DNA of 61,373 bases from Crocinitomicaceae bacterium (GTDB lineage Bacteria; Bacteroidota; Bacteroidia; Flavobacteriales_G; Salibacteraceae): positions 456,394 through 517,766 of the forward strand of contig PAJI01000006.1 in NCBI GenBank assembly GCA_002705995.1, given 5' to 3'. Made by a program: the position numbers and the translations under genes. Under the pieces are notes generated by a model, which saw only the letters and a list, made by a program, of their open reading frames with translations, did no database searches and was not told the origin of the DNA. Below, piece after piece: positions 2,800 to 25,479 of this stretch (position 1 is the stretch's first letter; every line of letters starts with the position of its first letter).

Positions 2800-2809
2800 G
2801 CAGTTTTAC

Positions 2810-4198: not shown

Positions 4199-4202
4199 TT
4201 AC
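4183..4202 (+). repeat. attL: left attachment core of the integrative island
   Basis: A 20-bp sequence, TTGTATCGGAAAGTAATTAC, recurs exactly at 44100-44119. With one mismatch the match extends to 25 bp (4183-4207 against 44100-44124). The copy covers the mnmE codons for Cys-Ile-Gly-Lys and the stop, so integration restores the gene. The tyrosine recombinase gene starts about 590 bp further in, the usual int-proximal arrangement. Confidence 0.9.
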
Positions 4203-4437: not shown

Positions 4438-4791
4438 ATGAGTAGCAATCTTCGTATTCCGAAAATCTGTCAGGATTGTGGTAGCGATTTTATCGCCAAA
4501 ACCACCGTTACTCAATATTGCAGTGACAAATGTGCCAAGCGAGCTTATAAGAAGCGCAAGCGCAAACAGAAGGTTGAAGCTGTTCCCACCCTTTCACAGC
4601 AAAAGGTCAATCACTCCAAAGAGATAGTTGGCGACAAAGAGTTTCTAAGCATTAAAGAAACCTGTCAGCTATTAGGCACAAGCAGAATGACGATTTACCG
4701 CCAGATCAAGAGCGGAACAATCCCTGCGGCCAAGGTTGGAGCCCGTACCATTATTAAGAGAACCGATATTGAAAAACTGTTTACAGTATGA
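4438..4791 (+). CDS. Excisionase-like protein: zinc ribbon plus MerR/HTH_17 domain
   Basis: Small DNA-binding protein of 117 residues. Cys11, Cys14, Cys28 and Cys32 form a probable zinc ribbon, followed by a basic linker (KKRKRKQK) and, from about residue 65, an excisionase-family winged helix (LSIKETCQLLGTSRMTIYRQ). Its last four bases overlap the integrase start (ATGA at 4788-4791), so the two are translationally coupled. This order, a small HTH protein immediately before a tyrosine integrase at the att end, suggests a recombination directionality factor. It could equally be a regulator of the integrase operon. Confidence 0.75.
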   Translation: MSSNLRIPKICQDCGSDFIAKTTVTQYCSDKCAKRAYKKRKRKQKVEAVPTLSQQKVNHSKEIVGDKEFLSIKETCQLLGTSRMTIYRQIKSGTIPAAKVGARTIIKRTDIEKLFTV

Positions 4792-5882
4792 AAGTAACAT
4801 TGAGAGAACGCCACCAGGGCGGCAAGATCAGCTTATACCTTGACTACTATCACAAAGGCAAGCGCAAAGCTGAGTACCTGAAACTATACATTGAGCCAAA
4901 CCCGAAATCCAAGGCAGAAAGGGAACTCAACAAAAAGACTATGCAGCTTGCAGAATCAATCCGTGCTAAACGCCTGATTGAAATTCAAAACGGTGTGTAT
5001 GGCTTCCGAGACAATGAAAAACTGAAAGGCAGTTTCCTAGAGTATATTCAACTCTTAACCAACAAGCGTCACAACAGTAAGGGCAACTACGGGAATTGGG
5101 ACAGTATGCTCAAACACTTGAAAGGCTACATTCCTTATGATAAGACCTTTGAAGAAATAGACCGACAGTTTGTAATGGGTTTCAAGGAATACCTTGACCA
5201 TGATGCAAAGAAGTCAAGCGGTCAACCGCTTTCCCAAAACTCAAAGTACTCCTACTTCAACAAGCTCAGAGCAGCGCTCAAACAAGCAGTAAAGGACGGT
5301 ATTATACCAAGCAATCCAAGTGAAGGCGTTGAAGCCTTTAAGCAAGGTGAACCTCAGCGAGAGTTTTTAACATTAGAAGAACTGCAAGCTGCAGCGCAAG
5401 CAGAATGTGAAATTCCTGCGATTAAGACAGCCTTTTTATTCTCAGCCCTCACAGGGTTAAGATGGTCCGATATTCAGAAGCTACTTTGGTCAGAAGTACA
5501 GCATTCAAATGATAACGGGTATTACATCCGATTCAGACAAAAGAAAACCAAAGGAGCAGAAACCCTCCCTATTTCAGAACAAGCCTTTGGCTTGCTTGGT
5601 GAAAGGCAAGCACCCGAAGAACGAGTATTCAAAGGATTGAAATACTCTGCATGGCATAACCTGAAATTGCAACAATGGATGATGAAAGCTGGTATCTCCA
5701 AAACCATCACTTTCCACTGTGCTCGTCATACTTATGCCACTTTGCAGCTTACGGCAGGAACTGATATTTACACAGTCTCAAAGCTCTTAGGCCATAAGGA
5801 ATTGAAGACCACCCAAGTCTATGCCAAAATCATAGATGAAAAGAAACAGGAAGCAGCCAACAAAATCAAACTTGACCTATGA
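4788..5882 (+). CDS. int: Tyrosine recombinase / integrase of the island
   Basis: Site-specific recombinase expected to join attP to the 3' end of mnmE. The 364-residue protein has an N-terminal arm-binding domain (about 1-60), a SAM-like core-binding domain (about 75-185) and a catalytic domain. The catalytic residues are visible: Arg225 in TGLRWSD, a Lys around 253-255, His310 and Arg313 in HCARHTY, His336 in LLGHKELKTTQ and the nucleophile Tyr345. All are intact, so the enzyme should be active. It resembles the phage/conjugative-transposon integrases common in Bacteroidota. The gene overlaps both neighbours by 4 bases. Confidence 0.95.
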   Translation: MKVTLRERHQGGKISLYLDYYHKGKRKAEYLKLYIEPNPKSKAERELNKKTMQLAESIRAKRLIEIQNGVYGFRDNEKLKGSFLEYIQLLTNKRHNSKGNYGNWDSMLKHLKGYIPYDKTFEEIDRQFVMGFKEYLDHDAKKSSGQPLSQNSKYSYFNKLRAALKQAVKDGIIPSNPSEGVEAFKQGEPQREFLTLEELQAAAQAECEIPAIKTAFLFSALTGLRWSDIQKLLWSEVQHSNDNGYYIRFRQKKTKGAETLPISEQAFGLLGERQAPEERVFKGLKYSAWHNLKLQQWMMKAGISKTITFHCARHTYATLQLTAGTDIYTVSKLLGHKELKTTQVYAKIIDEKKQEAANKIKLDL

Positions 5883-6895
5883 GCAATCAAACCAAATTAC
5901 TTGATGACATCCTATACCAAGAGCTTCGCCCTTGGTTAGGAAAAAACAGCATTGATCAAAAGTATGCTTCCAAACTCAGCAGCGTAAAGGAAGCCTCCAC
6001 AGATTTTCAATTCAAATATGAGATCAATTTTCACAGGCCATTCGATCACAAAACAAAGTACTATTCCAAACTGATATTGAATAATGTCAAAGCGGAATGT
6101 GTCAGGCTTGTGGAACTAATCAAGGAGGACAACAACGAAAACTTAATCAAGTATTGGCTTGAAGACACACTCAACAAGCGGATTAAAACGCGTTTAAAAG
6201 ACCTTGGAAAACTCATTAAAGAAAAGGACTATGCACTGACGTACATAGATCCTAAAAAAACATCCTTTGAATTAGACCAAACCCACAAGGCAAACACATT
6301 CATCTTACAGCTTCTAAAGCTTGCATACATGCAGCTATATTTAGAAATCCAAAATGCTTTCAGCACTTGGATAGATGATCAATTCATACTGGAGGACTTT
6401 TACAGCCAACTACTATTAGAACCAGTCCCGGACAAACATTTCTTGAAACCAGTTCACGTAATTGAAGTTGAATCCAAACCAGTACCAGCAGCCAAAACGG
6501 AATCCACAGCAACGGTAAATTCATTTCATTCATTTACCTACAAACAGTTACCCACCAACCCAGATAAATTGACCGATCTATGGGATAGTCTAAAGCTGAA
6601 TCATTTCATTAGCAAATCCACAACCCTACTCAACTTCAAAAAGGTATTCTCAGGAGGTGAAATCAAAACGCCTATAGAATGGACAGGAAATATCAGCGAG
6701 CTATTCTATTTCATTAAGCTGATATACTCTGAGCATAAGTTGGTGGAGGATCTAAAGCAAAAGCAATGGGAAGTGACTTGCCTATGCTTCGTTGATACTG
6801 ATGGGAATTCCTTTGACAGGTCAAAGTTCAGGTCTTTAAAAAGACCGAACCTATCAGGAGATAAAATAGAAAAGGCAGTTTCGCACCTGATATAG
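5879..6895 (+). CDS. Island protein of unknown function, loosely RteC-like C-terminus
   Basis: A 338-residue soluble protein overlapping the integrase stop by four bases, so probably co-expressed with it. The C-terminal third has a pattern (FKKVFSGG, IEWTGNISELFYFIKLIY, then a conserved FVDTDGNSF-like stretch) seen in proteins encoded next to integrases in Bacteroidota elements. It loosely recalls the end of RteC, the regulator of CTnDOT excision genes. The N-terminal 200 residues are helical and charged with no motif I recognise. A regulatory or excision-accessory role is suggested only by position. Confidence 0.5.
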   Translation: MSNQTKLLDDILYQELRPWLGKNSIDQKYASKLSSVKEASTDFQFKYEINFHRPFDHKTKYYSKLILNNVKAECVRLVELIKEDNNENLIKYWLEDTLNKRIKTRLKDLGKLIKEKDYALTYIDPKKTSFELDQTHKANTFILQLLKLAYMQLYLEIQNAFSTWIDDQFILEDFYSQLLLEPVPDKHFLKPVHVIEVESKPVPAAKTESTATVNSFHSFTYKQLPTNPDKLTDLWDSLKLNHFISKSTTLLNFKKVFSGGEIKTPIEWTGNISELFYFIKLIYSEHKLVEDLKQKQWEVTCLCFVDTDGNSFDRSKFRSLKRPNLSGDKIEKAVSHLI

Positions 6896-7126: not shown

Positions 7127-7426
7127 ATGGACGAAATAATTGAACGTCTTGAAAATCTCCAACGCCTAATTGAGAGCCAGGGGATTTATACGAAAGAAGT
7201 TTTAAACTTCAATGAGGCTTGCCAGTACTTGGAACTTTCACAGTCACACTTGTACAAGTTGACAAGTGCAGGGAATATTCCACACTACAAGCCAAATGGA
7301 AAAAAGCTCTATTTCAAGAGAACTGAGTTAGAAAGCTGGTTGCTACGCAACCGCAATGCCACTCAGGAAGAAATAGACCGTAGAGCTGCGGATTACCTAA
7401 TCAAGAAAGGGAGGGTAAAGCTATGA
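7127..7426 (+). CDS. Small HTH_17 (excisionase-family) DNA-binding protein
   Basis: A 99-residue protein. A short N-terminal helix is followed by a winged helix of the excisionase/MerR type (about 25-75): FNEACQYLELSQSHLYKLTS, then IPHYKPNGKKLYFKRTELESWL. Pairs of such proteins ahead of primase-like genes are usual in Bacteroidota integrative elements, where they are thought to control excision or replication genes. It overlaps the next gene by four bases. Exact role unknown. Confidence 0.75.
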   Translation: MDEIIERLENLQRLIESQGIYTKEVLNFNEACQYLELSQSHLYKLTSAGNIPHYKPNGKKLYFKRTELESWLLRNRNATQEEIDRRAADYLIKKGRVKL

Positions 7427-7719
7427 CAGAGGGTTTCGATATGCTCTTGACAGTAGCTCAAGACATAAAAACAATCAAAGCATACCTCCTCAATTTCCAT
7501 AAGTCACGATTGGAGCAATTCAGTGACGAATGGATTGATGGTCAGGTAGTGATGCAAACGCTGCACGTTAGTAAAAGAACCCTTCAATCCCTTCGGGATA
7601 GTGGGGTTCTTCCCTACAGCCGAATCAATGGCAAGTTCTATTATAAAGTTTCCGACATGGAGGCTTTATTGGAATCCAACTACTCACCTTCAAAATCAAA
7701 GCATTATGGAGATCAGTAG
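7423..7719 (+). CDS. Second small HTH_17 DNA-binding protein
   Basis: A 98-residue protein with a helical N-terminus and a winged helix at about 38-90 (MQTLHVSKRTLQSLRDSG, LPYSRINGKFYYKVSDMEALL). It is similar in layout to the preceding protein but clearly diverged. It starts within the ATGA overlap at 7423 and overlaps the primase-associated gene by 14 bases, so the three form one translation-coupled unit. It probably acts as a regulator or accessory of the replication/excision module. Confidence 0.75.
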   Translation: MTEGFDMLLTVAQDIKTIKAYLLNFHKSRLEQFSDEWIDGQVVMQTLHVSKRTLQSLRDSGVLPYSRINGKFYYKVSDMEALLESNYSPSKSKHYGDQ

Positions 7720-8626
7720 AGAGGCCATTTTGAGTAAGACACACTATGGGCTAAATATCTATGCCCATGTGTTACGCCACTACTATCAGGGTGAAACAGT
7801 TCTTTCCCTTTCGGGAAGGGACTGTAAACCTGCTAAGAATCCATTCAATGCGGACAAGCCCACATTGATGGTGAAAATAGTTGATGGTATTGCTACGCAT
7901 ACCGATACAGAAGAAGCCATTGCACAAGGCAATGTCTTTGATTTTGCTTCATTGCATTTCAGCCTCGAAGGGCAAGCCCTTCTCGATAAGATCAATGAAG
8001 AACTATACCTGAGAATTGGAAAGGAAAGAGGTTTTTATCATCAAGAGGAAACGCAACCTGCGGTTGCTATTCCTGAAATTCAAAAGCCTACACCGCCAGT
8101 TTTTAGCTATTTCAAAAAGCCTGTATCCAATGTGAAGCCAAGTCGCCAAGTCTCCTTGATTGAGGTGTACCACCTCATCAAAGGCAATGATTTTGCTTCG
8201 TGTACAAGTACACTTCGCAACATCTCAGAGCCAAAGGATGCCCGAAAGTACAAGGCTCAAAACTTCGATTATGTGACTTTCTCAGGCTCATTCTCTAAGC
8301 GGAATGATGGAAACCTCCAAAGACATTCAGGTTTGCTCACAATCGATTTTGACCACATTGAGGACATCCCTACACTCAAGCAATCATTACTCAGCGACCA
8401 TTATTTTGAAACGGAGCTACTGTTTGTATCTCCTTCAGGCGATGGATTGAAATGGGTAATACCGATTGACTTGACGCAGGCAAAACACCAGGACTATTTC
8501 AAGGCAGTGGCAAACTACGTTTCCCACACCTATCAATTAGAAGTAGACCAATCAGGAAAGGACATTTCAAGAGCATGTTTCCTTCCGCACGATACAGACA
8601 TATTCATCAACCCTAAATACATATAG
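7706..8626 (+). CDS. BT4734-like / VirE N-terminal domain protein (primase-associated)
   Basis: A 306-residue protein of the replication module. The C-terminal half (about 145-300) has features of the BT4734-like domain that accompanies primases in Bacteroidota elements: LIEVYHLIKG, HSGLLTIDFDHI, LLFVSPSGDGLKWVIPI and ISRACFLPHD. The N-terminal part is variable. The start at ATG 7706 keeps a short overlap with the HTH gene; extending upstream to 7601 would read through most of that gene's C-terminus. It ends three bases before the DUF3987 gene, so the two very likely act together, probably in initiating element replication (inference). Confidence 0.8.
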   Translation: MEISREAILSKTHYGLNIYAHVLRHYYQGETVLSLSGRDCKPAKNPFNADKPTLMVKIVDGIATHTDTEEAIAQGNVFDFASLHFSLEGQALLDKINEELYLRIGKERGFYHQEETQPAVAIPEIQKPTPPVFSYFKKPVSNVKPSRQVSLIEVYHLIKGNDFASCTSTLRNISEPKDARKYKAQNFDYVTFSGSFSKRNDGNLQRHSGLLTIDFDHIEDIPTLKQSLLSDHYFETELLFVSPSGDGLKWVIPIDLTQAKHQDYFKAVANYVSHTYQLEVDQSGKDISRACFLPHDTDIFINPKYI

Positions 8627-8629
8627 GTT

Positions 8630-10453
8630 ATGGAGCGAAAAACATTCAATCCGTTGGAATGGCTTGATAAGCCTGACCAACAAGTAAAAGTTACAGAGCA
8701 AAGCAATTACACTACAAATACACAACTCGAAGAAGTTGAACGAATCATTCAAGGCATTGAGGCCAGCCGTATAGATGTTACCTCCGCTTACAGCGATTGG
8801 GTAAACATCGGCTTTGCCTTTGCGGATGAGTTTGGTGAGACAGGTAGAAACCTGTTCCACCGTGTTAGTCAATATCATCCTGAATATTCTACACAGGAAT
8901 GCGACAAGCAGTTTGATAATTGCATGAAGGCAAGAGGTCAGGGAGTTTCCCTGAAAACCTTCTTCTATCATGCCAAGGAAGCAGGAATACCATTGACTAC
9001 CCCAAAGCAGGAAAGACAGACTTACAGCCCTGCTAGCAGGTCTGAGAATCAAAGCAAGAATCTCAATAGTCAGGCAGAAATCAAGAAAGAACCAGAGCAA
9101 ATGCCAACCTTTCCTGATTCCTTGTTTCCTGAACTTCCTGAGTTTTTGCAAAAGGTAATACAGATAGCCACTTCTAATGAGGAAAGGGATATTCTACTCC
9201 TTGGCTCCTTAGTGGCTATTAGTGCCTGTTTACCCAAAGTGTCAGGCATCTATGATGGCAAGCGTGTCTATTCCAATCTGTTTCTATTCATTACCGCCCA
9301 AGCCTCGGCAGGTAAAGGTCGTTTGGTGCATTGTCGTCAACTAGTGAATCCAGTACACAAAGAGTTCAGAAAGCAAGCCAAACTCCACAAGCAACATTAC
9401 GAACTGGAATTGGCTGAATACAACGCCAACAAAGGGAAAGTTGAAGGAATAGAGAAACCCGAGAAGCCACCCGAAAAGATGCTCTTTATCCCTGCCAATA
9501 ACAGCTCCACAGGAGCTTATCAATTATTAGGTGATAGTGATGGTAAAGGACTGATATTTGAAACTGAGGGTGATACACTTGCACATGCTTTTAAGAGCGA
9601 TTACGGAAATTATAGTGACGGCTTTAGAAAAGCTTTTCACCATGAAACCATTTCCTACTATCGCAGGACAGATCGTGAATATGTGGACATAGAAAGCCCT
9701 TGCCTTTCTACTGTCTTGTCAGGTACACCCAAGCAAGTAGCGGCATTAATCCCGAATGCTGAAAACGGCTTATTCAGCCGGTTCATCTTCTATTATATGA
9801 ATGTTCGTCCAGAATGGAAGAATGTATTTGCTTCGCAAACTACAAATGGATTAGACGACTACTTTGATGCGTTAGGTAATGAGTTCTTTAGCCTTTACAG
9901 TTCGTTGAAAGCTGGACAGGATATTCAATTCTTTCTCACCGCTGACCAGCAAGACCAATTCAATCAGTTCTTTGGTCAGATACAAGAAAAGTATATGAGC
10001 ATTCAGGGAATCGACTATATGGCAACCATCCGAAGATTAGGATTGATTGCCTATCGTTTCTGCATGATATTCTCCGCTTTGCGGATCATGGAGACAGGTG
10101 AAACATCATCAAAGATGATTTGTGAAGAAAGAGACTTTCAAGCTTCGCTTGCTATGGTCAAAGTGTTGGTAAAGCATTCGAGTAAAGTGTTTGCAGAACT
10201 GCCAGAGGACATTCAGAAACCTACTCGATTAAATAGGAAAGAGAAATTCTTGAATAAGCTACCCAAGCACTTCAATCGCCAAAAGTATCTTGAAGCGGCA
10301 GCAGCTTTGAGCATTCCTCAGAAAACGGCAGAGGGTTATATCACTGACTTTTGTAAATCAGGACTGATTCACCGTGAGTCTAAGGACAACTACATAAATA
10401 CCTCGATTGAGGAAAGTCAGGATTCTGAGGAAATCAAGGAAGAACAAGCCTGA
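8630..10453 (+). CDS. PriCT-2 and DUF3987 domain protein (replication helicase/primase-like)
   Basis: A 607-residue protein. Residues about 35-117 match the primase C-terminal domain PriCT-2 (YSDWVNIGFAFADEFG, CMKARGQGVS). From about 165 onward it is a DUF3987 P-loop protein: Walker A-like AQASAGKG at 223-230, an acidic strand GLIFETEGD and the conserved region ESPCLSTVLSGTPKQV. Paired with the BT4734-like protein it forms the replicative core found in many Bacteroidota integrative elements, where the two halves resemble a split primase-helicase. The biochemical role is inferred from domain context. Confidence 0.8.
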   Translation: MERKTFNPLEWLDKPDQQVKVTEQSNYTTNTQLEEVERIIQGIEASRIDVTSAYSDWVNIGFAFADEFGETGRNLFHRVSQYHPEYSTQECDKQFDNCMKARGQGVSLKTFFYHAKEAGIPLTTPKQERQTYSPASRSENQSKNLNSQAEIKKEPEQMPTFPDSLFPELPEFLQKVIQIATSNEERDILLLGSLVAISACLPKVSGIYDGKRVYSNLFLFITAQASAGKGRLVHCRQLVNPVHKEFRKQAKLHKQHYELELAEYNANKGKVEGIEKPEKPPEKMLFIPANNSSTGAYQLLGDSDGKGLIFETEGDTLAHAFKSDYGNYSDGFRKAFHHETISYYRRTDREYVDIESPCLSTVLSGTPKQVAALIPNAENGLFSRFIFYYMNVRPEWKNVFASQTTNGLDDYFDALGNEFFSLYSSLKAGQDIQFFLTADQQDQFNQFFGQIQEKYMSIQGIDYMATIRRLGLIAYRFCMIFSALRIMETGETSSKMICEERDFQASLAMVKVLVKHSSKVFAELPEDIQKPTRLNRKEKFLNKLPKHFNRQKYLEAAAALSIPQKTAEGYITDFCKSGLIHRESKDNYINTSIEESQDSEEIKEEQA

Positions 10454-10643
10454 TAGGCTTTTCTTCCGAAGATTCGACCACACCTATAAAATCAATCTCT
10501 TGTGGTCATACTAAGGAAAATTAATCCTTGGTATCCTCCATTTCCTTAAAATCCTGAGTCGTAGTTAATGGATTTATTTTCTTTTTCTAACCTTTTATTT
10601 TCTTATATTAGCCAAATATTGACAAGTCATAAAATAACAGGTC
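10454..10643. promoter_or_regulatory. Hairpins and putative operator before the XRE regulator
   Basis: Behind the DUF3987 gene, GACCACA (10476-10482) pairs with TGTGGTC (10501-10507), and AAGGA/TCCTT form a second small dyad around 10513-10529; neither has a strong U-tract. Just ahead of the XRE start, CAAGTCAT (10623-10630) and CAGGTCAT (10638-10645) are near-identical direct repeats 15 bp apart, the second covering the ATG at 10644. They could be the autoregulatory sites of the controller protein (inference). Confidence 0.45.
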
Positions 10644-10934
10644 ATGCAATTTGGTGAACGAATTAGGCAACTACGGGAGGACAAAGAGCTACTGCAAAGA
10701 CAACTTGCAGCAAGCTTGGAAATAGACACTCCCATGTTTAGCAAGATTGAAAGAGGTGAACGCAGGGCAAAAAGAGAGCAAGTTTTAAAACTTGCCGAAT
10801 TATTGGGTACAGATGTGAATGATTTACTGACACTGTGGCTTGCAGACCAGGTATATGATCTTGTAAAGGATGAAGATACAGCGAATGCAATTTTAAGGGA
10901 GGCAGAAGAAAAGGTAAAGTATGCAAGAAAGTAA
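10644..10934 (+). CDS. XRE-family HTH regulator (R-M controller protein)
   Basis: A 96-residue protein with a canonical Cro/C1-type helix-turn-helix at about 5-60 (RIRQLREDKELLQRQLAASL, FSKIERGERR) and a short helical tail. It is the first gene of a cluster with a methyltransferase and an endonuclease and overlaps the methyltransferase by 14 bases. That is the classic position of a C (controller) protein, which delays endonuclease expression when a type II system enters a new host. The role is inferred from position. Confidence 0.85.
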   Translation: MQFGERIRQLREDKELLQRQLAASLEIDTPMFSKIERGERRAKREQVLKLAELLGTDVNDLLTLWLADQVYDLVKDEDTANAILREAEEKVKYARK

Positions 10935-12522
10935 AGGCATAAAAGTAAATACTGAACTGACTCCAAAAGAAATGGAGTTACCGAGTGATTATGCTGATCG
11001 CTTAGGATTGATATATGCCAAGGAGTCATCTGATGTTGACAAGAAATCAAAGGGTCAGTTCTTTACCCCTCTTGCCATTGCAAAATTCATGGCTTCAATG
11101 TCTACATGTCAAAGTGAAGCTGTTTCCATACTCGATCCGGGTTGCGGTACAGGAGTATTGTCAATCTCTTTAGCCGAACATTTCAAATCCATAAACCCTG
11201 AATTGAAAAACATTCGGCTTGTGGCATACGAAACAGATGTCAAGCTTATAAAATATTCGCAACTCACACTTGCATACTTGAAAGAATGGCTTTCCCAACA
11301 CAATATTAAATTCGAATACATACTTCATATAACTGATTTCGTATTAGATAATCGTGATGCTCTGGATGCTTTTACAAACCTTTTTGGAAAGAAACTTGAT
11401 TCGTTCGATTACATCATTTCAAATCCACCGTATTTCAAACTGCCTAAGAATGATGAAAAGACAAAAGCTGCGAAAGGTGTAGTAAATGGGCATGCGAATA
11501 TCTATTCTATCTTCATGGCAATAGCCGCACAGCTTCTTAAAACCAACGGTGAACTGATTTTCATTACACCCCGCAGCTTTAGCTCTGGGAGCTATTTTCA
11601 AGTATTTCGAAATAACTTTTTCAAGAAAGTTGACATAATTCAAGCTCATCTTTTCCACTCTCGAAAAGATACTTTTAGTCGTGACAAAGTACTGCAGGAA
11701 ACAATCATTATGAAATGCCAGCCTAAGACGCAAGGCACGAATAGAAATGAGATATTAGTTACCTCCTCAAGCGGAACAAGAGACTTAGACAATCTGGAAA
11801 CTTTGACTCTGCCTTCCAATCTCGTCATTGAATATGATTCTGCGGATAAAATTGTTTTCCTTCCAACCACCCAAAGAGAACGAGAAATTGTTGAGTTATT
11901 TCGTACATGGAACGGTAGCCTGAACAAATACAACATACAAATCTCTACTGGACCAGTGGTAGCCCATAGAGCTTGGGATTATATCCAAGAACAGCCCCAA
12001 AATGAATCTTCTGAAATTGTTCCGCTTTTCTGGCTACACAATGTTTCTAAAATGGAGTTAACATGGCCTATTGAAAAACCCAATAAAGGCCAGTACATCA
12101 AGTCTGAACAAAAATCTCGCTCTATCTTGATTGAGAATAAGAACTACCTGCTATTGAGGAGATTCAGCAGTAAAGATGATAAAAGCAGGTTGATTGCAGC
12201 TCCATATTTTAGTAATGCAATCACAGCAAATTTCATTGGAGTAGAAAACAAATTGAACTACATCTATCGTCCAAAAGGGCACTTGGATAGAGCTGAAATC
12301 ATTGGTTTAGGTGCATTATTAAACAGCACTTTATTTGATCAATTTTTTAGAATAATAAATGGAAATGTGAATGTGAGCGCAACAGAATTACGCTTTATGC
12401 CTCTGCCTCCTCATGAGCAGATCATCGAGATTGGCAAACAACTCATTCTTGGCAATTCCTTCGACAATACAACTATTAACAATTTAATCATAGCATCTTT
12501 TGAGCTTGAAACTATTTACTGA
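10921..12522 (+). CDS. Type II N6-adenine DNA methyltransferase
   Basis: A 533-residue class I SAM-dependent methyltransferase. It has the N-terminal signature KGQFFTP (44-50), SAM-binding motif I LDPGCGTGVL (71-80), an acidic residue after VAYETD for ribose binding, and catalytic motif IV SNPPY (167-171), which marks N6-adenine methylation. The C-terminal 250 residues should be the target recognition domain, ending in the family's LRFMPLPP pattern. It protects the island's recognition sites against the adjacent endonuclease. PstI and BsuBI methylate CTGCAG, but the specificity of this pair cannot be read from sequence alone. Confidence 0.9.
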   Translation: MQESKGIKVNTELTPKEMELPSDYADRLGLIYAKESSDVDKKSKGQFFTPLAIAKFMASMSTCQSEAVSILDPGCGTGVLSISLAEHFKSINPELKNIRLVAYETDVKLIKYSQLTLAYLKEWLSQHNIKFEYILHITDFVLDNRDALDAFTNLFGKKLDSFDYIISNPPYFKLPKNDEKTKAAKGVVNGHANIYSIFMAIAAQLLKTNGELIFITPRSFSSGSYFQVFRNNFFKKVDIIQAHLFHSRKDTFSRDKVLQETIIMKCQPKTQGTNRNEILVTSSSGTRDLDNLETLTLPSNLVIEYDSADKIVFLPTTQREREIVELFRTWNGSLNKYNIQISTGPVVAHRAWDYIQEQPQNESSEIVPLFWLHNVSKMELTWPIEKPNKGQYIKSEQKSRSILIENKNYLLLRRFSSKDDKSRLIAAPYFSNAITANFIGVENKLNYIYRPKGHLDRAEIIGLGALLNSTLFDQFFRIINGNVNVSATELRFMPLPPHEQIIEIGKQLILGNSFDNTTINNLIIASFELETIY

Positions 12523-12526
12523 CCAA

Positions 12527-13462
12527 ATGAGCAAACTAGAAGAATCACAACAAATCTTAAAGGAACTTGGGTTACCACCTGCTCAGCAAAATGAAATCTC
12601 TGCCTATACCCTACTTGCATTGGCAAGTATTACAGAAGAGGACAATTGGAGTGATGCTACTAAAGAGAGTAAGAAAGTCACCAAAGGGATTATGCAGTTC
12701 ATTGCAGAAGTCTATAAAAGAGAATATGCTCCAAATACACGTGAAACTGTTAGAAGACAGGTTCTTCACCAATTCGTTCAAGCAAGAATTGCCGACCTCA
12801 ACCCCGATATTCCTGACCTGCCAGTAAACAGCCCAAGGACTCATTATGCTTTAACGGATGAAGCTCTTGAAGCTATCAAAACCTTTGGTTCAAAAGCATG
12901 GGAGAAGGCTTCAAAGGCCTTCGTAGAAAGTGTAGGCTCTCTACAAAAGCTGTATGCTAAGGAAAGGGAAAGCGCATTAATTCCTGTCAAGCTAAGTGAT
13001 GATACTGAAATCAACCTTAGTCCAGGCAAACACAATGAAGTACAGAAAGCCATAGTGGAAGAATTTGCACCCCGATTTGCCAAGAAATCGAAAGTGCTGT
13101 ACCTCGGAGATACCGCTAAAAAAGACTTGTATGTAGACAATGAGTCATTAGCTTCATTAGGTATTCCAATAGACCAACACAGCAAGTTGCCCGATGTTGT
13201 GATCTATGATGAAGAAAGAAATTGGCTATATCTTGTTGAAGCTGTTACCTCACATGGCCCGGTTTCACCAAAAAGAGTGATTGAGCTTGAAGCTTTCCTA
13301 ACAGACTGCACTGCTGGGAAAATTTATGTGACCGCATTTCCTGATTTCTCAGAATTTAAAAAGCACTCAAAAGAAATTGCTTGGGAAACCGAGGTTTGGA
13401 TTTCTGAAATGCCTGATCATATGATACACTTCAATGGTGACCGTTTTATGGGGCCGAGATAA
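12527..13462 (+). CDS. BsuBI/PstI-family type II restriction endonuclease
   Basis: A 311-residue nuclease of the BsuBI/PstI family. The N-terminal 130 residues form the helical/winged DNA-binding part (QNEISAYTLLALASI, VRRQVLHQFVQARI). The C-terminal catalytic part has LGDTAKKDLYVD, LPDVVIYDEE (221-230) and LVEAVTSHGPVSPKR (236-250), an arrangement of the PD-(D/E)xK type with Asp223 and Glu238 as likely metal ligands. The ATG at 12527 is chosen over an upstream TTG because it lies just past the methyltransferase stop. Motifs are intact, so the R-M pair looks functional. The pAgo gene follows 35 bases later on the same strand. Confidence 0.9.
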   Translation: MSKLEESQQILKELGLPPAQQNEISAYTLLALASITEEDNWSDATKESKKVTKGIMQFIAEVYKREYAPNTRETVRRQVLHQFVQARIADLNPDIPDLPVNSPRTHYALTDEALEAIKTFGSKAWEKASKAFVESVGSLQKLYAKERESALIPVKLSDDTEINLSPGKHNEVQKAIVEEFAPRFAKKSKVLYLGDTAKKDLYVDNESLASLGIPIDQHSKLPDVVIYDEERNWLYLVEAVTSHGPVSPKRVIELEAFLTDCTAGKIYVTAFPDFSEFKKHSKEIAWETEVWISEMPDHMIHFNGDRFMGPR

Positions 13463-13497
13463 TTAATTTGTTAGCCATGAAATAATCAAATAGCACA

Positions 13498-15597
13498 ATG
13501 TCCAACCATACCTTCAACATACTCACATTCAATCACCCTCAGGAAGAGCAAACCTTTTACTTCACTGACCAGGAACAAGCCAACCTCACAAGGATGTACA
13601 AATCGCTTGTACCTGATGAGGTTATTGAAAAGTATGGAGAGCAAGACCATTATTACACATCATTTACAGTCGAGGAGGAAGGTTTTTTAGCAATATCAAA
13701 ACCAACAAGTCCGAAGTTTGAAACCAAGACGAATGAGCAAGGTGAAGAACGTTCATATACCATCCGTAATTCTACCTTTTCCACTTCAGTACTAAAGAGA
13801 TATTATAATTCGCTCATACATAGCCATTTCAAAGAGAAGGGCTTTTTAGTAAAGCCCAATTTTGTAAGTGATACAGAAGTTTGGCTTCCAAGTGCCAAAC
13901 AAGACACCACAGGCAAGTACAAGATATTCGACCGCTTCTCCCTCAAAGTACAATTTAAAACCGTTTCCGACAGTCTTGAATTGTTGGTGACATTTGAAGG
14001 TAAATCCAAAATCTTCAAAGTTCCTGTCTCCACTCTTTTAGAGGATGTATCTCCGACAGATATTAATTGGGTAGTGTACGAAAAGGGTCTGTACCGATTT
14101 GATGAGTTGCCTGATAGTGGCAAAAGAGAATATGACAAGGTGTATCCAGTATGGAATTTCGAAATCAGAGATGCATTAATGCAAGGAACGGAAGCCCCGG
14201 ACAAAACCAATAAGTACAAAAAGTTTAGAGAGGGAATCGACAAGTTCTACAATCAATACCTGAATACAGAGGAGTTCAAAGCCATCATTCCAATTACCTC
14301 CAATGGATTCATACCAGTTAATAAAATCAATATCGGGTCAGTCAATAATTCCAGTAACCGCCTTTTATTCGGTGAACAAAAGTCTGGTATTGTGCCAATG
14401 GATGGAATGAAAGAGCATGGCCCCTTTGATTTCAGCTCTACTTCTAAAATCCACTTCTTTTTCATCTTCCATAAAGATGATCAACACATCGCCCAGAAGA
14501 TGGACGGTTATTTCAAAGGATCAGAATTTGGCTTTAAAGGATTGGTCAAGTTTATTCATACAACTTACCACACCGAAAAAGGATTCAGTATAAGGTTTGA
14601 TGACAGAGATGATCCATGGCCAGAAATCTATGAAGCCATTACCAATAAACACTTTGAATCTGACATTCAGTACATCGCCATTTATATCAGTCCATTCTCC
14701 AAAAATGCTCCAGACAAATCAAGAAGGAAGATATACTACAAGCTGAAAGAATTGCTACTGAAAGAAGGCGTATCCTCACAGGTAATTGATGGAGAAAAGG
14801 TAATGACTAATGAAAAGTACTATTACAGCTTACCAAATATTGCAATTGCCATTTTAGCCAAATTGAACGGCATTCCGTGGAAACTGGATACCAAGCTCAA
14901 GAACGAATTGATTGTAGGGATTGGAGCATTCAGAAACTCAGAGGTAGATATACAATACATTGGCAGTGCTTTTAGCTTCGCTAACAATGGGAAATTCAAC
15001 CGTTTTGAGTGCTTCCAAAAAGACCAAACAAAAGAGTTAGCAGGTTCAATTATCAGAGCAGTAAAAGAGTATGCAAATGTAAATACAGGCATCAAACGGC
15101 TTGTGATCCACTTCTACAAGAGTATGAGGCAAGATGAACTACAACCGATAGAAGACGGCCTCAAAGACCTTGGATTAGACATTCCAGTATTTATAGTTTC
15201 CATCAACAAGACAGAATCCTCAGACATTGTTGCATTTGATAACAGTTGGAAAGACCTTATGCCAATGAGTGGCACTTTCATAAAGGTTGGATACAACAAG
15301 TTCCTGCTATTCAACAACACAAGATACAGCCCAAAATTCTACAGCTTCCATGACGGCTTTCCGTTCCCGATAAAGCTGAAAATCTTTTGTACAGAAAAAG
15401 AGCTGGTAGAGGAATATAAGACAGTAAAGGAACTGATTGATCAGGTATATCAGTTCAGTCGAATGTATTGGAAATCAGTAAGACAACAGAACTTACCAGT
15501 TACCATCAAATACCCTGAAATGGTAGCAGAAATGCTCCCTCATTTTGATGGCAATGAAATACCTGAATTTGGAAAAGACAATCTTTGGTTTTTATGA
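13498..15597 (+). CDS. Long prokaryotic Argonaute, PIWI active site probably degenerate
   Basis: A 699-residue pAgo. N, L1 and possibly a reduced PAZ occupy about 1-370. The MID domain (about 380-465) has a Y-K-Q-type 5'-guide-binding pattern (YYKLKELLLKEG, then SSQV, and AILAKLNGIPW). PIWI follows from about 470 to the family-type hydrophobic end WFL. At the first catalytic position, usually Asp in VGID, residue 476 is Gly (IVGIGAFRN). At the second, the usual Asp after the beta-strand ending in His is replaced (LVIHFYK, 536-541). Near the end IKYPEMV has no Asp at the usual place. It therefore probably binds guide and target without slicing. It sits directly behind the R-M genes and its stop overlaps the Fur-family start. 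The family is certain; inactivity is an eye alignment. Confidence 0.88.
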   Translation: MSNHTFNILTFNHPQEEQTFYFTDQEQANLTRMYKSLVPDEVIEKYGEQDHYYTSFTVEEEGFLAISKPTSPKFETKTNEQGEERSYTIRNSTFSTSVLKRYYNSLIHSHFKEKGFLVKPNFVSDTEVWLPSAKQDTTGKYKIFDRFSLKVQFKTVSDSLELLVTFEGKSKIFKVPVSTLLEDVSPTDINWVVYEKGLYRFDELPDSGKREYDKVYPVWNFEIRDALMQGTEAPDKTNKYKKFREGIDKFYNQYLNTEEFKAIIPITSNGFIPVNKINIGSVNNSSNRLLFGEQKSGIVPMDGMKEHGPFDFSSTSKIHFFFIFHKDDQHIAQKMDGYFKGSEFGFKGLVKFIHTTYHTEKGFSIRFDDRDDPWPEIYEAITNKHFESDIQYIAIYISPFSKNAPDKSRRKIYYKLKELLLKEGVSSQVIDGEKVMTNEKYYYSLPNIAIAILAKLNGIPWKLDTKLKNELIVGIGAFRNSEVDIQYIGSAFSFANNGKFNRFECFQKDQTKELAGSIIRAVKEYANVNTGIKRLVIHFYKSMRQDELQPIEDGLKDLGLDIPVFIVSINKTESSDIVAFDNSWKDLMPMSGTFIKVGYNKFLLFNNTRYSPKFYSFHDGFPFPIKLKIFCTEKELVEEYKTVKELIDQVYQFSRMYWKSVRQQNLPVTIKYPEMVAEMLPHFDGNEIPEFGKDNLWFL

Positions 15598-16001
15598 GCG
15601 AATTAGAAAACAGACTTGAAAAGAGAAAAATCAAACCCACCACCATGCGCCTCTTAGTGCTCAGAAAACTGGTTGAATCTGGTTCTGCTATCAGTTTGAG
15701 TGATTTGGATGCAAAGTTTGAGCAAGCCGATAAAGCTACGCTTTACCGTACGCTCAAAACATTTGAAGATAAAAAGCTAATCCACAGTATCGAGGACGGT
15801 ACAGGCTCTATGAAGTATGCCCTTTGTGAAGAGGGTTGTGAATGCGAACCACAAGACCAGCATGTACATTTTCATTGTGTGAAATGCGGTGAAACCTATT
15901 GCCTAACACAGTCTAAAATCCCACAAACCCAAATACCCTCTGGTTTTAGAGCTTCCAGTGCCAGTATGGTATACAAAGGGGTTTGTGCCAATTGTCCCTA
16001 G
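15594..16001 (+). CDS. Fur-family metalloregulator (Zur/PerR-like)
   Basis: A 135-residue Fur-type repressor. The winged helix is at about 5-65 (ITHMR-type segment TTMRLLVLRKLVESG, then ATLYRTLKTFEDKKLI). The dimerisation domain carries HVHFHC (90-95) and two structural Cys pairs, Cys95/Cys98 and Cys131/Cys134. It starts at the ATG overlapping the pAgo stop (ATGA, 15594-15597), so it is translationally coupled to pAgo. It precedes the Czc-type efflux genes, so zinc or a similar divalent metal is the likely signal. TTGCA repeats just downstream may be its operator. Confidence 0.9.
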   Translation: MSELENRLEKRKIKPTTMRLLVLRKLVESGSAISLSDLDAKFEQADKATLYRTLKTFEDKKLIHSIEDGTGSMKYALCEEGCECEPQDQHVHFHCVKCGETYCLTQSKIPQTQIPSGFRASSASMVYKGVCANCP

Positions 16002-16006
16002 CAACT

Positions 16007-16044
16007 TTGCAAACAGGTTGCACTCTTTTTTCATTATTGTTGCA
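16007..16044 (+). promoter_or_regulatory. Phased TTGCA repeats, putative Fur/Zur operator-promoter
   Basis: TTGCA occurs at 16007, 16018 and 16040, spaced 11 and 22 bp, i.e. on one face of the helix. GCAAC (16001-16005) and GTTGC (16017-16021) also form an inverted pair. A weak -7-like element (TATTGTTG, 16035-16042) ends five bases before the GTG at 16047, which would make that transcript leaderless. Regulation by the adjacent Fur-family protein is inferred. Confidence 0.5.
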
Positions 16045-16046
16045 TA

Positions 16047-16355
16047 GTGAAATTTCTAACTATCATACTATCCTTTTTCCTGCTAGGACTATCACTAGTG
16101 CCCTGCGCGGATGAAACCGAACCGGATAGTGTTGAAATTTCATATGAAGAATCGGGATCAGATCATGATCACAATAAATCAGAGGATTTGTGCTCTCCTT
16201 TCTGTGTCTGTAATTGCTGCCATTCACACCTGATTGTTCAGCAAATCTTCATAAGTGAATTAGGCGCGCTTATATTTCCCCTTAAAAGAAGTGCCTACAA
16301 TGCCCCGATAACATCAGGGTTTATCGGCTCACTGCTACAGCCACCACAGGTTTAA
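16047..16355 (+). CDS. Small secreted Cys/His-rich protein (DUF6660-like)
   Basis: A 102-residue exported protein with a signal peptide at about 1-20, an acidic/His linker (DHDHNKSEDL) and a Cys cluster SPFCVCNCCHSH near 50-60 that could bind metal. It then has a hydrophobic stretch. This family of unknown function is found ahead of heavy-metal RND operons in Bacteroidota. The start is GTG. A role as periplasmic metal sensor or chaperone is plausible but inferred. Confidence 0.65.
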   Translation: MKFLTIILSFFLLGLSLVPCADETEPDSVEISYEESGSDHDHNKSEDLCSPFCVCNCCHSHLIVQQIFISELGALIFPLKRSAYNAPITSGFIGSLLQPPQV

Positions 16356-16446
16356 TATCAGTTTCATAAGGACAATTCCGTCCAATCGATCTTACTCTAA
16401 AGGATCGAAACAGAATCATTTTAACTGATACTAAATCATTTCATAC

Positions 16447-19400
16447 ATGATCAATAAAATCATATCGTTCTCGATAAAGAACAAATTCATTGTGGGCTTA
16501 CTCACACTTGCACTCATAGGTGTGGGGATCTATTCCATGTCCACGGTCAATCTGGGTTCCGTCCCGGATATCACCAATAACCAGGTGCAGGTGATGACTG
16601 TATCACCCAATCTGGCTACTGAAGATATCGAGCAGTTCGTCACCTATCCGGTCGAGTTGGCCATGGGTAACCTTCCGGGAGTAGATGAGATTCGCTCTGT
16701 TTCAAGATTTGGCCTGTCGGTGGTGACCATCGTCTTTGAAGATGACATGGGCACCTATTTGCCACGCCAACTGGTGCAGGAAAAACTGAACGAACTCCAG
16801 GAGACCATTCCCCAAAAATTCGGAAGTCCCACTATGGGACCAATTTCCACAGGTTTGGGGCAGATTTACGAATACACCATCCAACCTCAGGAGGGTTTTG
16901 AAACAAAATACTCGCCAACAGACCTGCGCACTATCCAGGACTGGATTGTAAAACGACAACTCACGCTACTGGATGGAGTAGTTGAAGTCAACTCATTTGG
17001 GGGTTACATCAAGCAATACGAGGTAGCCATCAATCCTGAAAAACTCAACGCACAAAAAGTTAGCATATCGCAGGTATATGAAGCACTAGCGAGAAACAAT
17101 GTCAATACCGGAGGGGCTTATATTGAGAAGAATCGAATGTCCAACTTCATAAGAGGAGAAGGATTGATTCGCTCATTAGACGACATTCGAAAAATTGTTA
17201 TCAAAACCGAAAATGGCATTCCTGTCACGATTGGTGATGTTGCTTCTAAAGTCCATTTTGGACACCAGGTACGCTATGGTGCATTCACACAGGATGGCCG
17301 TGAATCGGTGGGCGGCATCATCATGATGCTAAAAGGCTCTAACCCCAATGCGGTCATACAAAATGTGAAAGAGCGAATGGAAGAGGTTGAGAAATCGCTT
17401 CCTGAAGGATTGGAAATCAATACCATCATTGACAGAAGTGATCTTATTTCCAGAACGACCAGTACAGTGCAAACCAACCTGATCGAAGGAGCACTCATCG
17501 TCATATTTGCGCTCGTCATTCTATTGGGAAGTTTGCGTGGTGGTATCATCACGGCCACTACTATTCCACTTTCACTGCTTTTTGCATTCATACTGATGAA
17601 GCAATTCAATGTCTGGGCCAACCTGATGAGCTTGGGTGCCATTGACTTTGGAATTATTATAGATGGTGCGGTGATCATCATAGAAGGAACGGTCTATGAA
17701 ATCCAGAAACGCATACGCTCTGGTAAAATTAAGTTCAACCAGGGTGTCATGGACGAGGTAGCTTTTGAGTCCGGAAGCACCATGATGGGTTCTGCCTTTT
17801 TCGGTCAGATTATCATTCTCATTGTGTTCGCTCCGATCCTGTTTCTGACAGGTGTTGAGGGTAAGATGTTCCAGCCGATGGCCTACACCTTTGGTTTTGC
17901 CATGATTGGTGCAATCGTGCTTTGTCTAACCTATGTACCCATGATGTCAGCGCTGCTTATGAAGCCTGTTCAGAACAAAAAGAATTGGTTTGGCCGCTTC
18001 GAAAGATCATTGGAAAAAGTTAGTGACAAAATTATTGGAGGGATTCAACGAGCCTACCTTCCAGTTTTGAAAAGTGCTTTACGATTAAAGGCTATAGTAA
18101 TCCTGATAGCCGTTTTACTTCTTGGAATTGCAGGCTTTACTTTTTCCCGAATGGGAGGTGAATTCGTTCCGCAATTAGATGAGGGAGATATTGCTATGCA
18201 GGCATTGATACGACCGGGAAGTTCGCTCACAGAGTCTAATGAAGTCTCCATGAAAATTGAAAAGCTCTTGCTTGAAAACTTTCCTGAGATCAAAACGGTC
18301 ACCTCACGCATTGGTGTTGCAGATATACCCACAGACCCAATGCCCATGGACATAGCGGATATGTACATCATTCTGGAAAAGGACAAAGACAAGTGGGTTT
18401 CCGCAGCAACCAAAGACGAGCTAATTGATCAAATCAAAGACAAACTCGATGAACAGCTCGTTGGGGTTAACCTCGTCTTTACCCAGCCTGTGGAATTACG
18501 GTTCAATGAATTGCTTGAAGGAGTACGGGAAGATATTGCGGTCAAGCTATACGGTGAAGATTTAGAGGTTTTAGCCACCAAGGTTCAGGAGATGGCGGAG
18601 ATCATTTCCACAGTACCGGGTGCCGGAGATGTCAATGCTGAGCGGACCTCAGGACTTCCCCAAATGACAGTGAATTACAATCGTAATAAGATAGCTCAAT
18701 ACGGGTTAGATATTCAAAAACTCAATGAGTATGTCAGCTCAGCTTTTGCAGGTGGGGTGGCCGGAGTGGTTTTTGAAGGCGAGAAGCGATTCGATCTGGT
18801 CATACGCTTTGACGATGCACATCGCAAAAGCATAGATGACTTACGGACACTCTATATCGATCTACCGGATGGGACTCAAGTTCCCATAAAAGAGGTAGCA
18901 GATATTAGCTATGTACCTGGACCGATGCAGATCTCCAGGGACAACACCTACCGTAGAACGTATGTTGGAGTGAATGTGAGAGGACGCGATGTGGAGTCGG
19001 TGGTGAATGACATACAGGCCAAATTGGATGCGCAGTTGGATCTGCCGGCCGGGTACTACATCACCTACGGTGGAGAGTTTGAAAACCTGCAAAGAGCGAA
19101 AAGCAGATTAATGATCGTAGTGCCAATAGCCCTCTTTCTGATTTTCGTTTTGCTCTACTTTGCCTTAGAGTCATTTTCTCAATCTATTATGATATACATG
19201 GCTATTCCCCTAGCGGCTATTGGGGGCGTATTTGCTATGTGGTTGAGGGATATGCCATTTAGTATTTCTGCTGGTGTCGGGTTCATTGTACTGTTTGGTG
19301 TGGCTGTACTCAATGGTCTTGTATTGATCAACCGCTTCAATTCATTGAAGGAAGAAGGGGTGACAAGTATCAGAGAGAGAATTTTAACAGGAACAAAAGA

Positions 19401-20862
19401 ACGAATCAGACCTATTATGTTGACAGCAACTACAGACATTTTCGGATTTTTACCCATGGCATTTTCAGCTTCCGCAGGAGCGGAAGTGCAACGACCATTG
19501 GCTACCGTGGTGATTGGTGGTATGCTCACTGCCACCCTACTTACTCTAGTGGTACTTCCGGTGCTTTACACGTTTGTAGAAGGCAGAAGTGACAAAAGAA
19601 AAAGCCTGAAAGCACCGAATGCCAATGTGATTATTGCCCTGATCGTTTGTGGTGGATTGTTTGGATTACCAGCTGTGGGAAATGCGCAGGAAACCAAGTC
19701 TGTGAATACGCTGGAAGAAGCCATTGAAATAGGATTGGCCAATAATGGAAACGTCAAGGTGGCCAAAACTAACATTGACGTTCAACGGCAAGGAAAGAAG
19801 GCCGCATTCAACCCGGGCAAGACAGGTATTGGCATGCAATACGGACAATACAACAGCTTTGAAAATGATTTTTCTTTCAATGTTGGCCAGTCCTTTGAAT
19901 TTCCTACGGTTTACGGAAAACAGCGCAATCTGGCAAATGAACGGGTTGAGGGGAGTCAAAAACAGCTAGCTGTTACAGAGAACGAACTCAAAGCGAGTAT
20001 CCGACAAGCCTGGTACGAGCTGGCCTATTTGCACGAGACCAGAAACCTGTTGCTTTACCAGGACTCCATCTATGGAAGGTTCCTCAATGCCGCAACTATC
20101 CGGTTTGAGACGGAAGCTACCAGTTATTTGGAAAAAGCGGCCGCAGAAACGCAGGTGATGGAAGTCCAGAATCAGTTGAAGCTATTGGAAGCCGATATGA
20201 TCATCCAGGAAAAACAGCTTCAGATCCTGCTTAATGACACCACGGATTTGGCTTTTGCGCCCTCCGGTCTGGAGGAACGACAGGTTTTGGCACTCCAGGA
20301 TCGTGCACTGATTGCAAACAATCCATTTCTGCAGTTTACACAGCAGCAGGTGGAGATTGCGGATGCGCAGAAATCCGTTGTTTCTTCCAAATTAATGCCT
20401 GAGTTTTTTGTGGGGTATTTCAACCAGTCACTGATTGGTGGTGAAACAGCAGATGGTGGTGTTGCAACATCTTCTGACCGGTTTGGAGGCATACAGGCAG
20501 GCATTGCCATTCCATTGTTTTTTGGCTCCTATAAGGCAGACATTAAGGCCGCTAGCCTGCGTGAACAAATGGCTAAAACCAATCTGGAATACTTCCAGAC
20601 CACCGTTCAGGGACAATTTAGTCAGCAGGTGGAAGAAGTAAATAAATTCCGCAATAGCCTGAATTATTACAATGAAAAAGCAATTCCACAGGCGAATTTA
20701 ATTCTGGACAATGCCCAGAAGAGCTTTGAGAGCGGAAACATAGGTTATGTAGAATACTTTCAAAACCTCAACCAGGCCCTGAACCTCAAATTCAATTACC
20801 TCAATACATTAAATGGATACAATCAGGCGGTCATCAACCTGGAGTTCCTGATCGGTCAATAA
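16447..20862 (+). CDS. czcA: CzcA-type heavy-metal RND pump fused to a CzcC/TolC-like domain
   Basis: A 1471-residue fusion. Residues 1 to about 1040 are a complete HME-RND permease with 12 membrane segments and two periplasmic loops. TM4 carries the divalent-metal signature AIDFGIIIDGAVIIIE with Asp400, Asp406 and Glu413, the equivalents of the proton/metal residues of CzcA (Zn/Co/Cd), not the CusA pattern. From about 1060 a hydrophobic, signal-like segment (ending GNAQE) leads into a TolC/CzcC-type outer membrane factor of about 400 residues (TLEEAIEIGLANNGNV and coiled-coil repeats). Pump and exit duct are thus one polypeptide, or are separated by processing at the internal signal. It is followed by the adaptor gene. 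Such fusions recur in Bacteroidota. Confidence 0.93.
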   Translation: MINKIISFSIKNKFIVGLLTLALIGVGIYSMSTVNLGSVPDITNNQVQVMTVSPNLATEDIEQFVTYPVELAMGNLPGVDEIRSVSRFGLSVVTIVFEDDMGTYLPRQLVQEKLNELQETIPQKFGSPTMGPISTGLGQIYEYTIQPQEGFETKYSPTDLRTIQDWIVKRQLTLLDGVVEVNSFGGYIKQYEVAINPEKLNAQKVSISQVYEALARNNVNTGGAYIEKNRMSNFIRGEGLIRSLDDIRKIVIKTENGIPVTIGDVASKVHFGHQVRYGAFTQDGRESVGGIIMMLKGSNPNAVIQNVKERMEEVEKSLPEGLEINTIIDRSDLISRTTSTVQTNLIEGALIVIFALVILLGSLRGGIITATTIPLSLLFAFILMKQFNVWANLMSLGAIDFGIIIDGAVIIIEGTVYEIQKRIRSGKIKFNQGVMDEVAFESGSTMMGSAFFGQIIILIVFAPILFLTGVEGKMFQPMAYTFGFAMIGAIVLCLTYVPMMSALLMKPVQNKKNWFGRFERSLEKVSDKIIGGIQRAYLPVLKSALRLKAIVILIAVLLLGIAGFTFSRMGGEFVPQLDEGDIAMQALIRPGSSLTESNEVSMKIEKLLLENFPEIKTVTSRIGVADIPTDPMPMDIADMYIILEKDKDKWVSAATKDELIDQIKDKLDEQLVGVNLVFTQPVELRFNELLEGVREDIAVKLYGEDLEVLATKVQEMAEIISTVPGAGDVNAERTSGLPQMTVNYNRNKIAQYGLDIQKLNEYVSSAFAGGVAGVVFEGEKRFDLVIRFDDAHRKSIDDLRTLYIDLPDGTQVPIKEVADISYVPGPMQISRDNTYRRTYVGVNVRGRDVESVVNDIQAKLDAQLDLPAGYYITYGGEFENLQRAKSRLMIVVPIALFLIFVLLYFALESFSQSIMIYMAIPLAAIGGVFAMWLRDMPFSISAGVGFIVLFGVAVLNGLVLINRFNSLKEEGVTSIRERILTGTKERIRPIMLTATTDIFGFLPMAFSASAGAEVQRPLATVVIGGMLTATLLTLVVLPVLYTFVEGRSDKRKSLKAPNANVIIALIVCGGLFGLPAVGNAQETKSVNTLEEAIEIGLANNGNVKVAKTNIDVQRQGKKAAFNPGKTGIGMQYGQYNSFENDFSFNVGQSFEFPTVYGKQRNLANERVEGSQKQLAVTENELKASIRQAWYELAYLHETRNLLLYQDSIYGRFLNAATIRFETEATSYLEKAAAETQVMEVQNQLKLLEADMIIQEKQLQILLNDTTDLAFAPSGLEERQVLALQDRALIANNPFLQFTQQQVEIADAQKSVVSSKLMPEFFVGYFNQSLIGGETADGGVATSSDRFGGIQAGIAIPLFFGSYKADIKAASLREQMAKTNLEYFQTTVQGQFSQQVEEVNKFRNSLNYYNEKAIPQANLILDNAQKSFESGNIGYVEYFQNLNQALNLKFNYLNTLNGYNQAVINLEFLIGQ

Positions 20863-20890
20863 AATTTAAAGAACCTTAAAATATTAAATA

Positions 20891-22102: not shown

Positions 22103-22114
22103 ATAACCTGAATC

Positions 22115-24185: not shown

Positions 24186-24190
24186 AGCTC

Positions 24191-24257: not shown

Positions 24258-24264
24258 TTAAAGT

Positions 24265-25259: not shown

Positions 25260-25260
25260 C

Positions 25261-25476: not shown

Positions 25477-25479
25477 TCA

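Follow-up and report, generated by a model that had tools for sequence, protein, structure and literature searches.

A predicted catalytically inactive long Argonaute beside an exchangeable restriction slot in an mnmE-inserted element of Bacteroidota

Does an Argonaute that appears to have lost its catalytic residues cooperate with the restriction–modification (R-M) system encoded beside it? The question is raised by a 61,373-bp stretch of a Crocinitomicaceae genome (assembly GCA_002705995.1, contig PAJI01000006.1, positions 456,394–517,766), hereafter the window, in which genes for an XRE/Cro-type regulator, an N6-adenine methyltransferase, a BsuBI/PstI-type endonuclease and a long prokaryotic Argonaute (pAgo) follow one another within a mobile element. 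A first-pass annotation, made from the sequence alone, had recognized these four co-directional genes and suggested either a new pairing of the pAgo with the type II enzyme or a defence island that both simply share. The four open reading frames (ORFs) on the + strand were confirmed, and their Pfam and PADLOC identities agree. Comparison with relatives indicates that the pAgo is without a dedicated partnership with the R-M system of the window, because the R-M type is swapped or absent while the pAgo stays and is strongly constrained. With moderate confidence, we favor a reading in which restriction and a stand-alone, RsAgo-like, guide-directed interference act separately under a shared regulator in an mnmE-inserted Bacteroidota element.

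Exchange of restriction systems upstream of the pAgo gene

A genome scan found 354 relatives, of which 80 loci were kept; together with one viral contig and the window, they made up 82 loci. The slot was defined as the interval from the XRE regulator (or the replication genes) to the pAgo, and its content was readable in 75 loci, the window included. Slot genes were typed by Pfam for representatives and by sequence clustering for the remainder. Type I R-M systems occupied 23 slots, type III 15 and type II five, while 13 slots had other content and 19 were empty. The type II systems were themselves diverse: BsuBI/PstI (window), AlwI (L045), type IIG (L099) and MmeI-like (L093, L102). A dedicated pAgo–BsuBI/PstI pair was ruled out by the other content of the 74 remaining readable slots.

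The survey did find that relatives of the pAgo co-occur with R-M genes, as the pairing suggested in the first-pass annotation would require: 43 of the 75 readable slots contained them. This is far above background, since the whole window genome (4.49 Mb) gave four PF02384-type (N6_Mtase) matches. Methyltransferase candidates were common upstream of the pAgo and rare downstream (three loci). On the pAgo tree, which covers the close family only and on which L093 and L102 are still scored as "other", slot type required 36 changes over 74 tips against a mean of 41.7 for shuffled labels; it was slightly clustered, as expected of near-copies, and otherwise nearly random.

The exchange was also evident among the closest pAgos. 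Those of the window (type II), L036 (type I), and L033 and L090 (both empty) are about 97% identical, and those of L049 (type III) and L050 (type I) are even closer to each other. In the DNA alignment of the window with L033, homology extended to position 10422, at the 3' end of the DUF3987 gene, and returned at 13498, exactly at the pAgo ATG; 457 bases with another XRE gene alone stood in L033 in place of the regulator, methyltransferase and endonuclease genes. In L036, aligned with the window in the same way, a type I system occupied the slot. In nearly all junction-aligned loci, at most 80 nt separated the pAgo start from the gene before it on the same strand. Near-identical pAgos accompanied by type I, II, III or no R-M system form a natural series, and cooperation between Argonaute and restriction is therefore directly testable.

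That the pAgo is specially paired with the R-M system of the window, or with a type II enzyme, was thus not supported: the slot is swapped among types I, II and III or left empty, and the pAgo is kept and constrained. A simply shared defence island comes nearer the truth, yet says too little, for the pAgo is fixed beside one exchangeable slot. This position belongs to a single family of mobile elements and lies downstream of a conserved putative promoter with an operator-like site for the XRE protein.

Distant pAgos (about 21–23% identity) were also seen directly after R-M genes on Fibrella and Hymenobacter plasmids (L145, L146, L148). The upstream genes were of type III in Fibrella and encoded DNA methyltransferases of about 1115 aa in Hymenobacter; one plasmid carried a SIR2 gene after the pAgo.

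The pAgo might still cooperate with whichever enzyme occupies the slot; for instance, restriction products could supply its guides, or it could mark methylated DNA that has escaped cleavage. Such cooperation is favored by the placement of R-M genes, which in all 43 slots lie immediately before the pAgo and in its orientation, by R-M–pAgo adjacency on unrelated Bacteroidota plasmids, and by the promoter region at the XRE gene that both share. We nevertheless consider it quite improbable: the pAgo is kept and constrained beside the 19 empty slots, and pAgo lineage and R-M type do not fit each other, which makes contact with a specific enzyme unlikely. Very doubtful, too, is the bolder proposal that any R-M system entering the slot gains a guide-programmed partner in the dead pAgo, which would then be universal in this role and might, for example, use guides made from restriction fragments; if the proposal were true, cutting one invader would prepare the cell for sequence-specific silencing of that invader's relatives. 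Separate action of restriction and pAgo therefore remains the preferred reading, and the properties of the pAgo itself bear on it as follows.

Catalytic site, fold and classification of the pAgo

The catalytic and MID columns were checked in an alignment of 47 family members with Thermus TtAgo as reference, whose residues D478/E512/D546/D660 had been verified in the fetched TtAgo sequence. They corresponded to G476/gap/Y540/E674 in the window pAgo. Across the family, the four columns held G in 43, a gap in all 47, Y in 45 and E in 41 members. The earlier statement that catalytic Asp residues are missing, for which Gly476, HFYK and KYPEMV had been cited, thus pointed to the correct sites, and the alignment of the PIWI domain placed no full DEDX tetrad in this protein. 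The whole family is predicted to be catalytically inactive; with the same tetrad states prevailing, inactivity is a family trait rather than local decay.

Recent decay of catalysis was ruled out by the family-wide loss of the tetrad together with strong purifying selection. The ratio of nonsynonymous to synonymous substitution rates (dN/dS) of the pAgo was 0.04–0.08 (about 0.05), with the minimum, 0.006–0.029, in the dead PIWI domain (window versus five relatives). Between L107 and L111, neither of which has an R-M system, it was 0.084. Since purifying selection persists where R-M is absent, these ratios argue that the pAgo is needed as a binder and that its retention is independent of R-M. 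One locus (L075:10262-13003) had the pAgo frame broken into parts of 457 and 192 aa, separated by about 0.8 kb of extra DNA, possibly an insertion.

The pocket for the guide 5' end in the MID domain—Y413/K417/Q428/K455—was retained in 46–47 of the 47 members and follows the motif Y[X]3K[X]nQ[X]nK (PMC11096173). The pAgo matched the PADLOC family PDLC02385 over its full length (E = 1e-292). Its AlphaFold model had a pLDDT of 90.8, and the best PDB match in Foldseek was the RsAgo guide-RNA/target-DNA complex (E 1e-30, TM 0.68). The modeled fold comprises N, linker, (reduced) PAZ, MID and PIWI domains and is nearest to RsAgo, the PAZ region being short by secondary structure. A profile search ranked AfAgo, RsAgo and EcAgo on top. 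Because of the tetrad loss, the MID pocket, the RsAgo-nearest model and this ranking, the pAgo was filed as long-B and RsAgo-like, an assignment by alignment, fold and profile rank beside a tree that spans the close family alone.

The mobile element and its backbone

An exact second copy of the 20-bp repeat that marks the mnmE 3' end lies at 44100–44119, and the repeat had no match in 100 shuffles; the two copies bound an element of 39.9 kb (4183–44119) integrated at the mnmE 3' end (Table 1). Its tyrosine integrase and direct repeats, one of them at the mnmE 3' end, are the features of integrative elements that target trmE/mnmE. The mnmE gene preceded the integrase in 13 relatives as well, and the FCIGK-stop attachment (att) sequence was kept at every mnmE end read except one, where bases were masked.

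Table 1. Features of the element and of the pAgo gene array (window coordinates)
Feature	Position	Strand	Basis
attL, 20-bp direct repeat TTGTATCGGAAAGTAATTAC	4183–4202	.	mnmE 3' end (mnmE 2777–4198, Pfam); exact copy at attR
Tyrosine recombinase (integrase)	4788–5882	+	Pfam Phage_integrase, Phage_int_SAM_5, Arm-DNA-bind_5
DUF6617-like backbone gene	5879–6895	+	Just below Pfam cut-off; conserved in relatives
Backbone helix–turn–helix (HTH) protein (cluster HTH17a), probable excisionase type	7127–7426	+	Conserved position
Backbone HTH_17 protein, probable excisionase/regulator	7423–7719	+	Pfam HTH_17; conserved position
BT4734-like_N protein (PF08800, formerly VirE_N)	7601–8626	+	Pfam; real start probably 3' of mechanical GTG
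PriCT_2 + DUF3987 primase/helicase-like replication protein	8630–10453	+	Pfam
Promoter-like TATATTAG and operator-like TTGACAAGTCAT, just 5' of XRE gene	10604–10630	+	Comparison of relatives; function inferred
XRE/Cro-type regulator (C-protein-like)	10644–10934	+	Pfam HTH_31/HTH_3; PADLOC Control_protein; conserved neighbor
N6-adenine DNA methyltransferase, Eco57I/N6_Mtase family, slot cargo	10921–12522	+	Pfam, PADLOC
BsuBI/PstI-type restriction endonuclease, slot cargo	12500–13462	+	Pfam, PADLOC
Predicted catalytically inactive long-B pAgo, 699 aa	13498–15597	+	Pfam Piwi 7e-14; PADLOC; alignment; predicted structure
Second cargo slot: Fur-type regulator, CusA-type efflux, other metal-resistance-type genes	15598–25494	+	ORFs, Pfam, DNA alignment
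attR, second 20-bp repeat copy	44100–44119	.	Exact recurrence of attL

No relaxase, other mobilization or conjugation gene was recognized among the part of the element ORFs scanned with Pfam, and an Rfam search of the element gave no structured RNA. The DUF3987 protein had no close relative among viral contigs or plasmids, and plasmids held no high-identity relative of the window pAgo. The sole viral-contig match to the pAgo (L113, IMGVR_UViG_3300021349_000231; 46% identity) is probably part of a mobile element and not of a phage; the protein encoded before it (1075 aa) falls into one cluster with SNF2/PLD-type helicases. Two loci titled Clostridiales (L095) and Rickettsiales (L100) carry Bacteroidota-type genes and may be binning errors of metagenome-assembled genomes.

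When DUF3987 was used as a pAgo-independent query, the pAgo was in place in six of seven readable backbones with at least 56% identity in DUF3987, the exception being L138 (genome G499). In an eighth (G551), the contig stops within the slot and the pAgo of that genome lies on a different contig. More distant backbones (L126–L130) were without pAgo, and several carried R-M genes. Since several such distant backbones hold R-M and the close ones mostly hold pAgo, R-M is general cargo of these elements and the pAgo characteristic of one branch, not obligatory. The pAgo alleles, too, can be exchanged: compared with the window, L051 has 96% identity in DUF3987 and only 69% in the pAgo, and L100 has 94% and 46%, respectively.

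These observations bear on the idea that the pAgo serves the element, for example by silencing rivals that share its mnmE target or have similar replication modules, or by governing replication or excision of its own element. We regard this as unlikely, though it has points in its favor: the pAgo remains with the backbone while both flanks change, it is associated in a conserved manner with DUF3987/BT4734-type replication genes, and it was found on most close backbones retrieved without a pAgo query. Against this stand backbones that lack it (L138 and the more distant L126–L130) and the different alleles on the near-identical backbones of L051 and L100, which indicate no tight fit between pAgo and backbone.

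Downstream cargo

In L034 and L051, about 10 kb of metal-resistance genes past the pAgo stop codon were absent; with sharp homology breaks on both sides, the pAgo thus sits between two cargo slots. Genes immediately 3' of the pAgo differed between loci. In the window, large metal-resistance-type cargo extends over 15598–43200 and includes a Fur-type regulator, CusA-type and other efflux genes, P-type ATPases and MerT. L045, L049, L050, L054, L055 and L061 carry in the downstream slot a type IV restriction gene of GmrSD type, about 690 aa long and ending in DUF5655.

Searching the neighbors in the 82 loci revealed no constant effector beside the pAgo. That the pAgo, in the manner of the BPAN, BPAS and BPAM systems, triggers a toxic effector whose gene lies at another place in the element or in the host appears highly improbable. 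Such effectors are established for long-B pAgos (PMC10620215) and small accessory genes (RhuM, DUF5655, Abi_2 and AlbA_2 types) occupy some slots, but neither side of the pAgo has a constant gene for a nuclease, SIR2 or membrane protein, and the directly downstream genes vary by locus.

Gene array and regulation

The endonuclease ORF has a mechanical TTG start at 12500 that overlaps the methyltransferase ORF; the likely start is the in-frame ATG at 12527, which leaves a 4-base gap after the methyltransferase. BsuBI_PstI_RE and its N domain (PF06616, PF17728) were detected at 1e-65 and 2e-46; with both endonuclease domains and an N6/Eco57I methyltransferase, the pair is a predicted type II R-M system of BsuBI/PstI type. 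The pAgo begins 35 bases past the endonuclease end.

A scan for sigma-70 promoters gave no result usefully above shuffles; the conserved site came from the comparison of relatives. This shared site before the XRE gene, TATATTWG...TTGACAAGTCA, was present in 30 of 40 XRE loci and in 1.3% of random windows (10-bp core, at most one mismatch), and spanned loci with type I, II, III and empty slots. An XRE gene before the methyltransferase and endonuclease genes, with a conserved operator-like site at its own promoter, is the arrangement of a putative controller (C) protein. The operator-like site and the short gaps up to the pAgo suggest that the slot genes and the pAgo form one XRE-controlled operon.

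Proposed function

We infer the guide type, target type, mode of action, co-transcription, regulation and defense role of the pAgo array as follows. The pAgo is a near-constant gene of a Bacteroidota integrative-element family, for which the mnmE 3' end is the insertion point wherever visible. The array, including the exchangeable restriction cargo, is most likely transcribed from one XRE-autoregulated promoter. The pAgo would be loaded with a short 5'-phosphorylated guide, probably RNA, and recognize invading DNA of plasmids, rival elements or phages. Once bound, it may block replication or transcription or expose the invader DNA to host nucleases, an action that would need no particular R-M enzyme. 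Restriction and guide-directed interference would then be two separate layers that share one switch, and the XRE switch could postpone both upon entry of the element into a new cell.

Several points weigh against this proposal. The co-occurrence with R-M (43/75) and the R-M–pAgo loci on Fibrella and Hymenobacter plasmids could mean real cooperation. For most characterized long-B pAgos, a toxic effector takes part in the action (PMC10620215); a pAgo that works alone would be the RsAgo-like, less common case. The constancy of the pAgo is partly ascertained, because most relatives were retrieved with the pAgo as query. Finally, a close mnmE-inserted backbone (L138, genome G499) has no pAgo, nor does its genome encode one of this family; helicase and methyltransferase cargo lies where the XRE–R-M–pAgo array would stand.

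Comparison with known systems

Catalytically dead pAgos are already known; the near-constant place of one in an R-M-swapping island was not found described. Searches of open papers gave no description of the element or its R-M-swapping slot (subscription papers lay outside the search). Makarova et al. linked pAgos statistically with R-M and other defense genes (PMC2743648). Ryazansky et al. reported HsdS, type III endonuclease and RND efflux genes near long-B pAgos, leaving operon types undefined and the efflux link unexplained (PMC6299218). Song et al. (2023) described an inactive long-B subclade (og_54) with a VirE-N gene 2–8 genes upstream and left its function open (PMC10620215). A single architecture, with the pAgo between restriction and metal-resistance slots, can account for the VirE-N neighbor and for the HsdS, type III and RND efflux genes.

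The window pAgo likewise has a VirE_N-type (PF08800) gene several genes upstream, and its group, matched by description, is very probably the og_54 subclade. The paper lists the neighbor only, whereas here the VirE_N gene is placed in a mobile element that has att ends and a slot for interchangeable R-M systems. RsAgo of Cereibacter (Rhodobacter) sphaeroides, with 18% identity, resembles the window pAgo in fold, DEDX loss and the MID residues Y-K-Q-K, and no intrinsic cutting is expected of either; RsAgo, however, is followed immediately by the gene of a predicted nuclease (PMC10620215); the window pAgo has the exchangeable slot upstream and unrelated genes downstream. BPAN, BPAS and BPAM have in common with it an inactive long pAgo as putative sensor and differ in that the window family shows no constant nuclease, SIR2 or membrane effector. 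BsuBI/PstI-type R-M systems with a controller share the endonuclease family, the N6-adenine methyltransferase and the upstream XRE controller-like gene; here, in contrast, a pAgo directly follows, and the R-M system is one of many cargos at the site. SGI1-type islands use the same trmE/mnmE 3' end and are of similar size with variable resistance cargo; the likeness is one of site, size and cargo, and the window element differs in its Bacteroidota backbone (DUF6617, BT4734-N, DUF3987).

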